44,132 nucleotides of DNA, from positions 1-44,132 of IMG/VR virus record IMGVR_UViG_3300025294_000256; one strand, 5' to 3'. Below are positions 6,150 to 39,176 of the stretch, one piece after another. A model generated the notes under the pieces. That model saw nothing but the letters and a program-made list of their open reading frames with translations, was not told where the DNA came from and made no database searches. Within the stretch, counting starts at the first letter, position 1. The number at the start of each line of letters is the position of its first letter. The DNA comes from a virus. A program made the position numbers and the translations under genes.

Positions 6150-6770
6150 TTACGCCCTCAGCCTCAAACTGCCTTGCACACCGCCCTTCTTCTGAACGGA
6201 TCTCAGGTGCGAGCGGGGGAGCACGGCGAAAATCTCGCCGATCCATTCAAGTTCAACATCCTCGATCATGGCCGCGTTGAAAGACATTAGGTTGATGCCG
6301 CCAGCACCGCGAGCGATGGTTTTGATATATCGTTTTCCATCACTTGTCCGGACGGCGGCTTCTTCGCCGTAGAAAGATTCGACCGGCCGCTTTTGCTCTC
6401 GGTAACAGATGATGATTGCCCGGTCCTTGAAGATCGGCAACATGCTGTCCCCCTTTACCTCGAAGGCTATCATGTCGTCAGGCAGCGGAAAGGGAACCTC
6501 GATCTGGTCGATGCCGTCGGGCGGTACTTGCTCGAACTCAGGGAGGATCTCGGCTCCAGCTCCGATGTAGCCCATAAGCGGGACCACGTTTTCCGGGCCA
6601 ACCTCGCGCAGGTATATCTCGTCGATTTCTCTCTTCCTCGCTGTTTCGGGCTCAACACCTGAAACCCAACGGGCGACCGTCGATTGCGACACGCCCATCT
6701 CAGCAGCGAGGCGCTGCTGTTTCCATCCATCGAGCCGGAGGATCGCTTTGATTTTTGTCGTGTAATCCAT
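6150..6770 (-). CDS. CI-like repressor (HTH plus S24 autopeptidase)
   Basis: The lysogeny repressor, 206 residues. The N-terminal HTH spans about residues 5-40 (QQRLAAEMGVSQSTVARWVS). The C-terminal S24 peptidase region has the Ala-Gly cleavage site near residues 71-72 (YIGAGAE), the catalytic Ser109 in GDSMLP and Lys150 in RYIKTIA. RecA-stimulated self-cleavage is therefore expected, so DNA damage should induce the prophage. It is transcribed divergently from the Cro-like gene, with operators between them and at 6038-6087. The ATG at 6770 has little Shine-Dalgarno, and one operator (6781-6797) lies in its leader, suggesting autoregulation. Confidence 0.92.
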   Translation of the reverse strand: MDYTTKIKAILRLDGWKQQRLAAEMGVSQSTVARWVSGVEPETARKREIDEIYLREVGPENVVPLMGYIGAGAEILPEFEQVPPDGIDQIEVPFPLPDDMIAFEVKGDSMLPIFKDRAIIICYREQKRPVESFYGEEAAVRTSDGKRYIKTIARGAGGINLMSFNAAMIEDVELEWIGEIFAVLPRSHLRSVQKKGGVQGSLRLRA

Positions 6771-7104: not shown

Positions 7105-7274
7105 CCGTCGTCAACCTCAAATCCTTTGAAGAGGCTCGACAGGAAAAGGCTTGGGCCGAATACGTCGAGCTGGCCAACAAGGCGCAGAAGACGCAACGCC
7201 TCGACGATGCCATTGCGGCCGGTAAGGCATGGAGCCGCTTCGTCTATCTTTTCTGCCCTCGGAGCACGCGATGA
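7101..7274 (+). CDS. Small early protein, 57 aa
   Basis: A short charged helical protein (MTVVNLKSFEEARQEKAWAE...). It is supported by ATGA overlaps with both neighbours: its ATG sits in the Cro stop and its stop overlaps the helicase ATG. No domain is recognised. It may be a helicase-associated accessory or only a coupling cistron. Confidence 0.65.
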   Translation: MTVVNLKSFEEARQEKAWAEYVELANKAQKTQRLDDAIAAGKAWSRFVYLFCPRSTR

Positions 7275-8719
7275 ATGCTTCGCCGGTCGCCGCAGCCATT
7301 CCCGATGCGGTCTCATTCTCTGTCGAGATAGAGCAGGAGGTCTTGGGCGCCGTCCTCATCTCCGGCAATTTCGCAGCTGTTCAGGGTAAGGTGCGTCCGG
7401 ATCATTTCCTCGAGCCGGTCCACCTTCGCATTTTCGAAACGATCTTGATGGCAGGCGAGCGTTTCAAGACCGCCACTCCGCTGATCGTAATGAACCTTTT
7501 CCCGCCCGGCGAAGTCGAGACTTGGAGCAAGGCGCTCGGCATGCCGCTGGCAGAGTATCTTGCACGTCTATGCGGCGCCACGATCTACGGCGCGGCTGGG
7601 CTCAGCAAGTCTATTCCCCTGCTCATCAACCAGTGGGCTCGCCTTTCGGTCAAGAAGGAAGCCGAGCTTGTCGCGCTGGCCGCATGTGACGGCGCTGCGG
7701 TCCCGGCCGATCTCATTCGCGAAGCCACGCGGGCGCTCGACGACATTGCGATCGGTCTGAAAACCAGCGCGCGCGGCAAGACACGGTTCTTCATCGGGGA
7801 GGCGGCTGAGGCTGCCCTTGGCGAGGTCGAAGACGCGATGCACCGCGGAAGCGGTATCACGGGGATCACTTACGGCCTGACCGATATCAACCAGACGACG
7901 GGCGGGATGCATCCTGGCGAGATGGTGGTGCTTGGCGCTCGCCCGGGCATGTGCAAAACTGCCTTCGCCTTGTCGACGTCCATCAAGGCGGCAAAATCCG
8001 GCAAGGGGGTCGCCTTCATCTCTCTGGAGATGGGCGCGAAGACGCTGGTCAAGCGCGCGATAACCGATATCGCATATGACTGGAACGTGAAGGTTCCTTT
8101 CTCGGACCTGATCACCGGCCGCGTGTCGCAGAGGGACTTTGAAGCCCTCGTCGTCGCCAACACGGATCTGGCAAAGCTTCCCATCTGGATCGAGGAGCAA
8201 TCAGGCCTCACGCTTGCGGATCTACGCGTCAAGGTCGATCGTATCCGCGAAGACATGGCGCGCCAGGGCCAGTCGCTCGACCTTCTCGTCGTCGATTACC
8301 TGCAACTGCTTGCCGCATCCGGGCGCTACGCTGGAAACCGCGTGCAGGAGGTGACGGAGCTTTCCGCCGGCTTGCGGAACTTCGGCCGAGAGGAGGGGCT
8401 TGCCGTCCTGGCGCTTTCGCAACTGAGCCGCGGCGTCGAGAGCAGAGAAAACAAGCGCCCGACGCTTTCGGACCTTCGGGAATCGGGTTCGATCGAACAA
8501 GATGCCGATACGGTCGCGTTCCTGTATCGCGAAAGCTACTACCTTGAGAAGGAGCGCGGCAAAAACTCGGACGAGGAAGCCGACCGTATCGAGCGGCTGG
8601 CGGACTGCCATAACAGCCTCGAATTCATCATCGCCAAGCAGAGGAACGGCGCGGTCAAAACCATTGACCTGTTCGTCGATGTCGCTTGCTCGGCCGTCAG
8701 AAACGCGGTGAGGCTCTGA
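7271..8719 (+). CDS. DnaB-type replicative helicase
   Basis: A 482-residue hexameric 5'-3' helicase for phage replication. The N-terminal DnaB domain (VEIEQEVLGAVLISGNFAAV) is followed by the RecA-like ATPase with Walker B DLLVVDYLQLL and the downstream ALSQLSRGVE and LRESGSIEQDADTVAFLYR motifs. Walker A reads GARPGMCKTAF: the Gly before the catalytic Lys is Cys228 (codon TGC, 7952-7954; one base from GGC). That Gly is nearly invariant, so ATPase activity may be reduced or lost. ATG 7271 overlaps the previous stop (ATGA), and the gene is coupled to the initiator gene by TGATG. Confidence 0.93.
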   Translation: MNASPVAAAIPDAVSFSVEIEQEVLGAVLISGNFAAVQGKVRPDHFLEPVHLRIFETILMAGERFKTATPLIVMNLFPPGEVETWSKALGMPLAEYLARLCGATIYGAAGLSKSIPLLINQWARLSVKKEAELVALAACDGAAVPADLIREATRALDDIAIGLKTSARGKTRFFIGEAAEAALGEVEDAMHRGSGITGITYGLTDINQTTGGMHPGEMVVLGARPGMCKTAFALSTSIKAAKSGKGVAFISLEMGAKTLVKRAITDIAYDWNVKVPFSDLITGRVSQRDFEALVVANTDLAKLPIWIEEQSGLTLADLRVKVDRIREDMARQGQSLDLLVVDYLQLLAASGRYAGNRVQEVTELSAGLRNFGREEGLAVLALSQLSRGVESRENKRPTLSDLRESGSIEQDADTVAFLYRESYYLEKERGKNSDEEADRIERLADCHNSLEFIIAKQRNGAVKTIDLFVDVACSAVRNAVRL

Positions 8720-36340: not shown

Positions 36341-36744
36341 AAGAGGCGACACCCTTGGCTCGGTATCGCGGGGAGGGCCTGATGGCCTGATCGAATATAT
36401 GACACCGGGGTTGCTCCGGGAAGGCATGGTTCCGCGTTTACCGCACGCCCACGAAAACGCCTGCGGAGCGGCCGGCGATGGACATTCTTCGGAAATTCAG
36501 TGAACGGTAAAGAAAACGTTACTGCGTGCCTTGAATAAGGCAGATCAACCACCGATATGATCCGAGATTTGCATCTGCGAATCAAAAATAGAGCGGCCCG
36601 GAAGGTGTGCTACCACCGACCGGGCCTGAAGAACCAACCTTGCGGCAGGCTATGTGATCACATGGCATTCAAATGGGTACATACCATGTGTTTGTCAAGT
36701 CATTTGTCTGGTCTCCGCGAAAATGCATGAAGGAAATCAGGTAT
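36341..36744. other. Intergenic region before the BstA-like gene
   Basis: About 400 bp without a supported gene. It holds a 7-bp hairpin GGCCCGG/CCGGGCC (36595-36626) with a following T-rich stretch on the minus strand (weak terminator), a perfect 12-bp palindrome ATGTGATCACAT (36652-36663), and a CATGG/CCATG inverted pair (36661-36665, 36684-36688). The palindrome is a likely operator for the rightward gene. Confidence 0.5.
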
Positions 36745-37683
36745 ATGACTATCAAAATCAATAGGTTAGCTAGAGGAAATGCTAGTAAGGAAATCACCCT
36801 TGATCAGGGCGTTCTGGCCCTCACGATCGAGAGAGATCGAGAGGTTCAAGGGGTCGGGATGGGGGTACTGTCTGATGGGACACCTTACCTCAACCAGCGC
36901 GGCCTTGCCGCTCTTTGTGGTGTGCAGAACGCACATATTGGCACCATTAGCTCACAATGGCACGAAGTTGATCAGAAACCTCGTTTGCAGGCGATCAAAA
37001 CAATTCTGGGTAAAATCGGTCCGACTAAGCACGCTCCGCACATTGAGTTGACCCATCGAGGCGTGACGCATTTTTGCTATCCGGCCGACGTGTGTCTGGC
37101 GATCCTCGAATACTACTCTTTTGACGCGGGCGTGAACGTCTCGGAAACCGCGCGGGACAACTACCGGAAGCTGGCGGGGTCCAAGCTCAAAGACATGATC
37201 TATAGCCAGGTAGGCTATGATCCATCCGGTGGTGATAGGTTTAGGAAGTGGCATGAGCGGCTAGAGCTTAACTACCAGTCCGCGCCGAAGGGGTATTTCC
37301 ATGTGTTCAACGAGGCGCATACCATAATTTACGAACTCATTGTTGCCGGAGCAGATATCGGTGAAAAATTCGTCGTTGACATCTCTATCGGGCAGCATTG
37401 GTCTAAATACTGGGAAGATAGCGGTCTCGCTGAAGAGTACGATGTGAGGAAGAAGTACCCGCATCGGTATCCGGACAGCCATCCTCAAGCGAAGGCAAAT
37501 CCCCACGAATCTTGGTGCTACCCGATTGGTGCGCTTGGTGATTTTCGCACTTGGCTGCAGGACGAGTATCTGGAGGGCGGAAAATTCAAAACCTACCTTC
37601 ATGGTAAAGTGAAGAAGGGCGAGCTTGCTCCATCATTTGCCGAGCTGGCGCTTGAGGTACTTGATACGCGGAAGCTTGCATAA
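36745..37683 (+). CDS. BstA-like prophage protein (candidate anti-phage)
   Basis: About 312 residues. The N-terminal third (GVLSDGTPYLNQRGLAALCG) resembles KilA-N/Bro-type DNA-binding regions. The C-terminal half (KGYFHVFNEAHTIIYELIVA; VVDISIGQHWSKYWEDSGLA; YPDSHPQAKANPHESWCYPI) reads like the conserved region of BstA, a prophage-encoded abortive-infection protein. This match is from memory and unverified. I chose ATG 36745 (MTIKINRLA); ATGs at 36727 and 36673 are possible. It is alone on the plus strand within leftward cargo, has AT-richer codon use than its neighbours, and is preceded by palindromes. Confidence 0.55.
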   Translation: MTIKINRLARGNASKEITLDQGVLALTIERDREVQGVGMGVLSDGTPYLNQRGLAALCGVQNAHIGTISSQWHEVDQKPRLQAIKTILGKIGPTKHAPHIELTHRGVTHFCYPADVCLAILEYYSFDAGVNVSETARDNYRKLAGSKLKDMIYSQVGYDPSGGDRFRKWHERLELNYQSAPKGYFHVFNEAHTIIYELIVAGADIGEKFVVDISIGQHWSKYWEDSGLAEEYDVRKKYPHRYPDSHPQAKANPHESWCYPIGALGDFRTWLQDEYLEGGKFKTYLHGKVKKGELAPSFAELALEVLDTRKLA

Positions 37684-37939: not shown

Positions 37940-38995
37940 TCAATCGCCGGTGTACTTCTTTGCTGTGGCTCGCAGGCGGTCAGCATGATCGTATATTTGA
38001 TCCAGAGAGTCGATGATGAGGCGTTCCTCGGCTTCGCCATCAAAGAGCCCGATGTACTTAACGGAACGGTTGAACCATAACCGTGCGAGAGGCTTTCGAT
38101 TATTGTTGTCGACGAGAATGCCGCAGTAGGATTTCTGGTCCCGCATTACCACGCGCTTAGGGCTGATCGTGTCTCGCACGATGGCCTTAACAACCATATA
38201 CCCTTCGCGCTCTTCCTCGGTGGTGACAATCTCGGGCTCATCCTCGACCGGCTCATCAATGGCTTGAATGACCTCTTGCGTATCCGCGAGTGCATTTGAG
38301 AGCCGGTTTTTGACTGAATCCATGATGACTTCGCGGAAGGCAGCGCGAACGATGCCGGTGAACATTTCTTTGACTTGCGCCCGCATCTGCCCGTCGTAGA
38401 CGTTGCGGCTCACCAGGCGGACAAACTCTTCTGACGGCTCTTCGATGAGCTTCGAGATTTCCTGTTTCACACCAGAGGTGTACTTAAGCCGCTCCGCAGT
38501 CGCGAGGATCGCGGACACATCGAAGCTTCCCTTCTCGAATTTCCGCAGCTCGGCAACTATGCCGGCGTTGAAATCAGTTACGTCGAAAACGAAGAACGGT
38601 CGGGTGTCGAGCTTATTGGTAGCTTCAAGATCCGTGTAAAAGTTGAAAGTCCGCCCGTTGGTCAGGATCGCAAACTTCGCGTTCGTGACGGTGAAGTACC
38701 GGAAAAGCTGATCTAGGTGCTTCTTCTCCAACTGGACCGAAATAGGTTTGCACTCGATGAGGATGCGGATTTCGCCGTCAATTTTGATAGCGTAATCGAC
38801 CTTCTCGCCCTTTTTGCCTACTGCATCTGCTGTGAACTCCGGCACAACCTCTGTCGGATCGAACACGTCATACCCAAGCGAGCGGAGGAAGGGCAGGACG
38901 ACGGACGTCTTTACAGCCTCTTCGGTAGCCATGGTGCTGGAATGCAGTTTTACGCGCTCCGCGATCGCTCGCAGGCTCTCTTCAATCGTGCTCAT
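37940..38995 (-). CDS. PD-(D/E)XK nuclease, HsdR-N / COG4748-like
   Basis: A 351-residue protein. The N-terminus is the HSDR_N-type fold: TEEAVKTSVVLPFLRSLGYD, VVPEFTADAVGKKGEKVDYA and ILIECKP give the Glu...Asp...Glu-x-Lys nuclease core, followed by HLDQLFRYFTVTNAKFAILT. There is no helicase or methylase domain, so it is the stand-alone type often described as a putative type IV-like restriction protein. A C-terminal helical and beta region (YMVVKAIVRDTISPKRVVMR) completes it. GGGAGGGG precedes ATG 38995. A defence role is plausible but not shown. Confidence 0.8.
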   Translation of the reverse strand: MSTIEESLRAIAERVKLHSSTMATEEAVKTSVVLPFLRSLGYDVFDPTEVVPEFTADAVGKKGEKVDYAIKIDGEIRILIECKPISVQLEKKHLDQLFRYFTVTNAKFAILTNGRTFNFYTDLEATNKLDTRPFFVFDVTDFNAGIVAELRKFEKGSFDVSAILATAERLKYTSGVKQEISKLIEEPSEEFVRLVSRNVYDGQMRAQVKEMFTGIVRAAFREVIMDSVKNRLSNALADTQEVIQAIDEPVEDEPEIVTTEEEREGYMVVKAIVRDTISPKRVVMRDQKSYCGILVDNNNRKPLARLWFNRSVKYIGLFDGEAEERLIIDSLDQIYDHADRLRATAKKYTGD

Positions 38996-39176
38996 TACCC
39001 CTCCCAATATCCCCATCATTGGTTGAGTTGCACGATACCGCGATTCCGCCGGCGCACAAGAAAAACCTACGCTCGGGACGGGTAACAGCGGGGTTAGCTA
39101 CACGCTAACTTGCAGTGCCTCGCGCTGGTCTTTTCGGGTTGGAAATGAGATGAACAGGCTCCGTGTTCTAAACGGT

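Follow-up and report, generated by a model that had tools for sequence, protein, structure and literature searches.

A prophage-borne bstA gene with a predicted DNA self-immunity element of paired repeats around an IHF-like site

How does a prophage that carries the defence gene bstA spare its own replication once it is induced, and which stretch of its DNA grants that exemption? We address this for the bstA gene of IMG/VR record IMGVR_UViG_3300025294_000256, whose 44,132 bp (hereafter the window) are themselves one virus record. In the Salmonella prophage BTP1, the immunity element aba was mapped experimentally to 63 bp, 29 upstream of the gene and 34 within it; the CCCGCC repeats at its ends, 56 bp apart, are required, and on the published evidence the element works as DNA rather than through an RNA or a peptide (Owen et al. 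2021, PMC8585504). The discoverers did not settle how 63 bp of DNA switch BstA off, and in 2024 the mechanism was still called unknown (PMC11087260, PMC10884400). In the window, the self-immunity DNA is most likely a pair of direct repeats spaced 57 bp apart around an IHF-like site, and not the palindrome further upstream singled out by a preliminary description of this DNA. The features on which this reading is built are the following.

36745..37683, + strand: bstA coding sequence, 312 amino acids; start picked by homology with locus L007, an ATG at 36727 being possible
36730..36796, + strand: predicted aba (self-immunity) element, 67 bp, across the start codon; repeat, IHF site, repeat, as in BTP1 aba
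36730..36739, + strand: repeat copy 1, AAGGAAATCA, predicted BstA operator, 5' of the start codon
36787..36796, + strand: repeat copy 2, AAGGAAATCA, predicted BstA operator, within the gene
36756..36768, + strand: IHF consensus match AATCAATAGGTTA, 9/9, halfway between the repeats (consensus from PMC9820253)
36925..36951, + strand: recognition helix QNAHIGTIS, residues 61-69, in the helix-turn-helix of the AlphaFold2 model; covaries with the repeat

Sequence comparison makes the gene product a solid member of the known phage-defence family BstA. The PADLOC BstA profile matches residues 18-306 (E=2.9e-114), phrog_6287 of PHROGs matches residues 15-305 (E=1.4e-83), and identity to BTP1 BstA is 41% over 96%; Pfam and NCBIfam profile searches and a PDB sequence search with the window protein gave no match. 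The preliminary description had recognised BstA in the C-terminal half and proposed a profile search, which bears the call out over nearly the full length, and its suspicion of an alphaproteobacterial-type member agrees with the nearest relative, L007, in Ensifer (74%). Its reading frame from 36652 does not stand, because codon 2 there is TGA; the ATG at 36745, with its AGG-type ribosome site, is the likely start and matches the sole in-frame ATG of L007. Abortive infection via a block of phage DNA replication is the function of the BstA family, and is predicted for this protein. Its C-terminal half has invariant columns throughout (98 relatives), and thus holds the conserved C-terminal domain. 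An AlphaFold2 model built on those relatives (mean predicted local distance difference test score, pLDDT, of 90) places helices at 51-58 and 62-70, a high-confidence helix-turn-helix at 51-70, whilst the N-terminal tail, encoded by the predicted aba stretch, is of low confidence and predicted to be disordered. As regards a KilA-N-like N-terminal domain, the helix-turn-helix is predicted, with no Pfam model match and no significant fold match. The best fold matches of the model (window 37261-37683) are all to DdrC, a DNA-binding damage-response protein of Deinococcus; they are weak (E=0.1 and above), too weak to serve as a clue to mechanism, and we did not use them.

The strongest repeat of the region, the AAGGAAATCA pair at 36730-36796, had been overlooked in the preliminary description. 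Its copies flank the start codon at a spacing of 57, and so have the terminal direct repeats about 56 bp apart that characterise aba. The motif RAGGAAATCA occurs twice in the 44 kb, both times in this pair, against 0.10 occurrences expected, and none of 100 shuffles reached two; this repeat recurs with identical spacing in loci L004 and L005 (~70% protein identity). A middle AATCA was considered as a third repeat copy and rejected, being better explained as the core of the IHF site. The likeness to BTP1 extends beyond the homologous, prophage-borne protein: in both systems terminal direct repeats (56 bp apart in BTP1, 57 in the window) lie across the gene start with an IHF consensus match between them, the centre of BTP1 aba, as read from the published sequence, being AATCAAATGGTTA (9/9). 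The two differ in the repeat itself (AAGGAAATCA in the window, CCCGCC in BTP1), in the recognition helix (QNAHIGTIS against HHSVIQDIS) and in gene order, as the window bstA lies beyond the tail and lysis genes and does not adjoin the repressor. The suggestion of a possibly different immunity element was thus right in that the sequence differs from that of BTP1, and wrong about its place, which is the repeat pair and not the palindrome. We predict that this aba acts as DNA in conferring immunity to its cognate BstA, in keeping with the sequence evidence for constraint at the DNA level set out below; from its consensus match, AATCAATAGGTTA is likewise predicted to be bound and bent by IHF.

The palindromes to which the preliminary description pointed do exist, upstream of the gene.

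36652..36663, no strand assigned: palindrome ATGTGATCACAT, without an exact copy at any other locus; L007 shares the core GTGATCAC

Besides this palindrome, whose exact sequence occurs once within the window, CACATGGCAT (36659-36668) and ATACCATGTG (36681-36690) form a pair that is 90% complementary. We give next to no credence to the idea that these palindromes (36652-36690) are the immunity element. In favour of that idea, L007, the nearest relative, retains the core GTGATCAC equally far from its gene; however, exact ATGTGATCACAT was absent from all other bstA loci fetched up to that comparison, no relative other than L007 has a comparable palindrome, and both structures fall outside the region equivalent to the 63 bp that suffice in BTP1. 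The conservation among homologues that the preliminary description had proposed to compare is therefore largely lacking, and because the palindrome is confined to the window, with only its core in the nearest relative, it is unlikely as an immunity element. The palindrome at 36652-36663 is probably an operator or promoter feature, and not part of aba.

Comparison across the family shows that the predicted layout of repeat, IHF-like site and repeat recurs in most bstA loci and is conserved at the DNA level. About 160 bstA loci were fetched and reduced to 104 non-redundant ones, in which a repeat pair was scored at 8/10 or better at 56/57 bp. Such a pair is present in 64 of the 104, whilst the same test found 3 in a flanking control region lying 400 bp upstream, 5 in one lying 300 bp downstream and a mean of 6.9 (maximum 13) in dinucleotide shuffles; at a threshold of 9/10 the count is 51, against 1 upstream, 1 downstream and 0.6 in shuffles. 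The repeat sequence varies by group (AAGGAAATC, AAGGAACTC, CCGATCACC, CCGCGCACC, CCCGCCA, CCCACCA, GGTCACC, GGTCAGCA), and the two copies within a locus match in 62% of cases, compared with 8% when copy 1 is set against copy 2 of a random other locus. One clade (L053, L065 and L066, with helix RNKYIGI(I/L)S) has no clear repeat pair. The BstA-Ec and BstA-Kp loci of the 2021 paper were not located in sequence collections; a small independent set was made up of E. coli phage CL707, Klebsiella phage RCIP0114, one E. coli prophage and one Azospirillum plasmid, and in three of the four a pair scoring at least 8/10 lies at spacing 57. In the fourth, the E. coli prophage, CCACCA recurs at 56 (7/10) and the IHF score is 8/9; the IHF score is 9/9 in the Azospirillum plasmid and 7/9 in both CL707 and RCIP0114. 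Pseudomonas phage PseuP_222, also examined, has no convincing element.

Could the repeats be no more than the shadow of a repeated peptide (KEI...KEI, NPRT...NPRT) in the BstA N-terminus, maintained by selection on the protein? In its favour, many alphaproteobacterial loci have a spacing of 57, or 19 codons, with the two copies in the same frame. We nonetheless consider this very improbable: the spacing is 56, out of frame, in 15 loci, and in 11 a stop codon lies between copy 1 and the gene start, so that the constraint is at least partly on DNA. Codon choice points the same way, as certain codons, TTA among them, are fixed contrary to usage. When the repeat sets the register, 22 of 29 loci use TTA for the Leu at the TTR position, against 7.5% of the other Leu codons in the same genes (an earlier count of 26/33 was partly circular and is superseded). 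The tail concerned is predicted to be disordered, and for BTP1 a peptide has been excluded (PMC8585504).

A central match of 8/9 or 9/9 to the IHF consensus, WATCARNNNNTTR (PMC9820253), is found in 43 of the 64 loci with a pair, against a mean of 0.7 and a maximum of 5 in shuffles. We leave an outside chance that the central motif serves something other than IHF, being read instead by BstA itself, HU or a phage factor, as it matches a consensus only and 20 of the 64 elements reach no more than 7 on the forward strand. Against this, both halves of the consensus are present, and AT content reaches 0.72-1.00 at 10-13 bp upstream of it, the position of the A-tract. In 7 loci of another clade the best IHF site is reversed and shifted by ~12 bp, with a predicted bend centre (-6.5) much like that elsewhere (-8), which again fits IHF. 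Following the lambda H' complex, the bend centre was placed 7 bp from the consensus, towards the A-tract.

Comparison of loci shows that the repeat sequence changes together with the predicted recognition helix of BstA. By their second helix, the partners are NAHIG with AAGGAAATC, NLHIR with AAGGAACTC, HHxVIQ with CCCGCCA, xHTxxL with CCACCA, NARIVE with CCGATC and DSSRIS with CCGCGCACC. On trees of the C-terminal domain alone, helix and repeat switch jointly three times among 33 loci and five times among 43, with full concordance in both sets; in L145 and L146 the C-terminal domains are near-identical, yet helix and repeat both differ.

We therefore arrive at a mechanism for the window to which we assign a probability of about 0.7: the prophage carries bstA together with a cognate aba, which would titrate BstA into an IHF-bent complex. 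Each repeat would serve its own BstA as the operator to which the helix-turn-helix binds; host IHF would bend the DNA between the repeats by about 160 degrees, and the bend would lock BstA on both repeats into one compact, inactive complex. Upon induction the prophage would replicate, aba copies would rise and BstA would be drawn into this inactive form, so that the phage's own replication is spared, whilst a foreign phage without matching repeats would leave BstA free to block its replication. Joint change of repeat and recognition helix would explain why immunity is cognate. IHF looping at aba is here inferred from the motif and its position. The closest mechanical analogue of the predicted layout is found in type I-F CRISPR transposons, at whose left end an IHF consensus lies between two TnsB sites and is thought to unite the bound protomers (PMC10201428), although that arrangement serves transposition and its protein and sites are unrelated (PMC10201428). 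In Tha/Ith (PMC11087260) and Tab/anti-Tab (PMC10884400), a prophage defence gene is likewise accompanied by a co-encoded antidote that spares the induced prophage; there, however, phage genes encode the antidotes (a protein in the case of Ith), whereas that of the window is predicted to be DNA. Our literature search, which covered neither subscription papers nor preprints, found nothing linking BstA with IHF: Owen et al. do not mention IHF (PMC8585504), and the two papers containing both terms appear to concern other topics.

Several points weigh against this mechanism. A single chromosomal BTP1 aba does not suppress BstA in trans (PMC8585504), and as an induced prophage starts at one aba copy, simple titration is not a full explanation. 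No clear pair was found in 40 of the 104 loci, among them two fairly close relatives of the window BstA, L012 and L028. Of the eight joint switches, strongly supported branches hold only one in the 33-locus set and two in the 43-locus set. Finally, in a Mantel scan a second segment, TIIYELIVA in the C-terminal domain, tracks repeat type as strongly as the helix does, and specificity may therefore not lie in the helix alone; with this second peak the scan was not clean enough to pin specificity to the helix, and the switch-by-switch comparison was used instead. In the window BstA the corresponding segment is at about residues 190-201 (TIIYELIVAGAD), perhaps a second contact or a dimer interface.

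Would a purely regulatory role account for the same layout? The predicted aba overlaps the ribosome site and start codon of bstA, a usual place for autorepression, and because of this overlap it may also repress bstA. We think it quite unlikely, however, that the repeat pair and IHF-like site are an autoregulatory operator only, through which BstA represses its own gene by looping, with immunity located elsewhere: self-immunity in BTP1 depends on the corresponding repeats, and the 63 bp are enough without bstA expression (PMC8585504). Moreover, ~19 viral contigs carry intact aba-like elements although no bstA was found on them, which would leave nothing to regulate. These orphans came from exact pattern scans of viral contigs, which also returned bstA loci; in one scan, which allowed spacings of 51-63, 21 of 22 hits lie at 56 or 57. 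The orphan records run up to 67 kb, many being fragments, and none was found to carry bstA. Hits in L198 and L264 are cut by contig ends, and those in L170, L258 and L261 look like chance and were set aside.

On ~12 orphan contigs (within L204-L222, and L225, the weakest) the element lies inside a small open reading frame, MIRDPSDG...SREWLKxYH. This family, which has no Pfam or PHROGs match, is encoded at 53 viral loci and adjoins a DUF1376 gene in a Bradyrhizobium phage; an aba-like element occupies its variable linker in ~12 of 50 members, whereas the others have unrelated sequence there, between flanks that align. All these elements are of the AGGAAATC type except that of L207 (CGTCACC type). 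Other orphans are L175, the group L255/L256/L262, and L257, where the element directly follows an integrase-like reading frame; the orphan L259 has stops between its two copies. At L263:12092-12155 (- strand), an element sits at the 5' end of a 921-amino-acid phage open reading frame on a 66-kb contig, whose N-terminus matches only phrog_31240 (function unassigned). Immunity DNA seems, moreover, to outlive the defence gene: L192:1545-1607 (+ strand) is a perfect Salmonella-type aba preceding a decayed bstA, and at L176:2273-2338 (+ strand) the element is kept whilst bstA is cut after TPYL. We predict that the orphan elements are escape devices against matching BstA.

Extended to the whole family, one design would underlie self-immunity: an IHF bend flanked on either side by an operator for the cognate BstA helix-turn-helix, the pair being held 56-57 bp apart. 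Operator and helix would change as a unit, and bstA-less phages would carry the bare element for escape, for example as an in-frame cassette in the MIRDPSDG linker; to this broader proposal we give even odds. With the IHF-centred layout, the question of how aba switches BstA off becomes directly testable, the cognate aba can be read off the sequence for many BstA proteins, and phages that carry only the immunity DNA become candidates for countering BstA. Such a phage would be expected to escape the matching BstA.

The wider record is that of a prophage or temperate phage, with integrase, repressor, terminase, portal, capsid and tail genes on the same record as bstA; the terminase, portal, major capsid, tail and endolysin genes were identified alongside the following.

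1-2542, - strand: integrases
6150-6770, - strand: S24-type repressor
7229-8719: DnaB helicase

A position downstream of the repressor is a frequent, not a required, trait of bstA, and is not seen here (bstA at 36745, repressor at 6150-6770 on the - strand). Beside bstA, the product of a gene at 37940-39019 (- strand) has an HSDR_N nuclease domain (phrog_4225 endonuclease) and may likewise serve in defence, or else in recombination. The contig end (42587-44132) carries a tRNA-Val gene, two tRNA-Asp genes and a Band_7/SPFH gene, which may be phage cargo or host flank.
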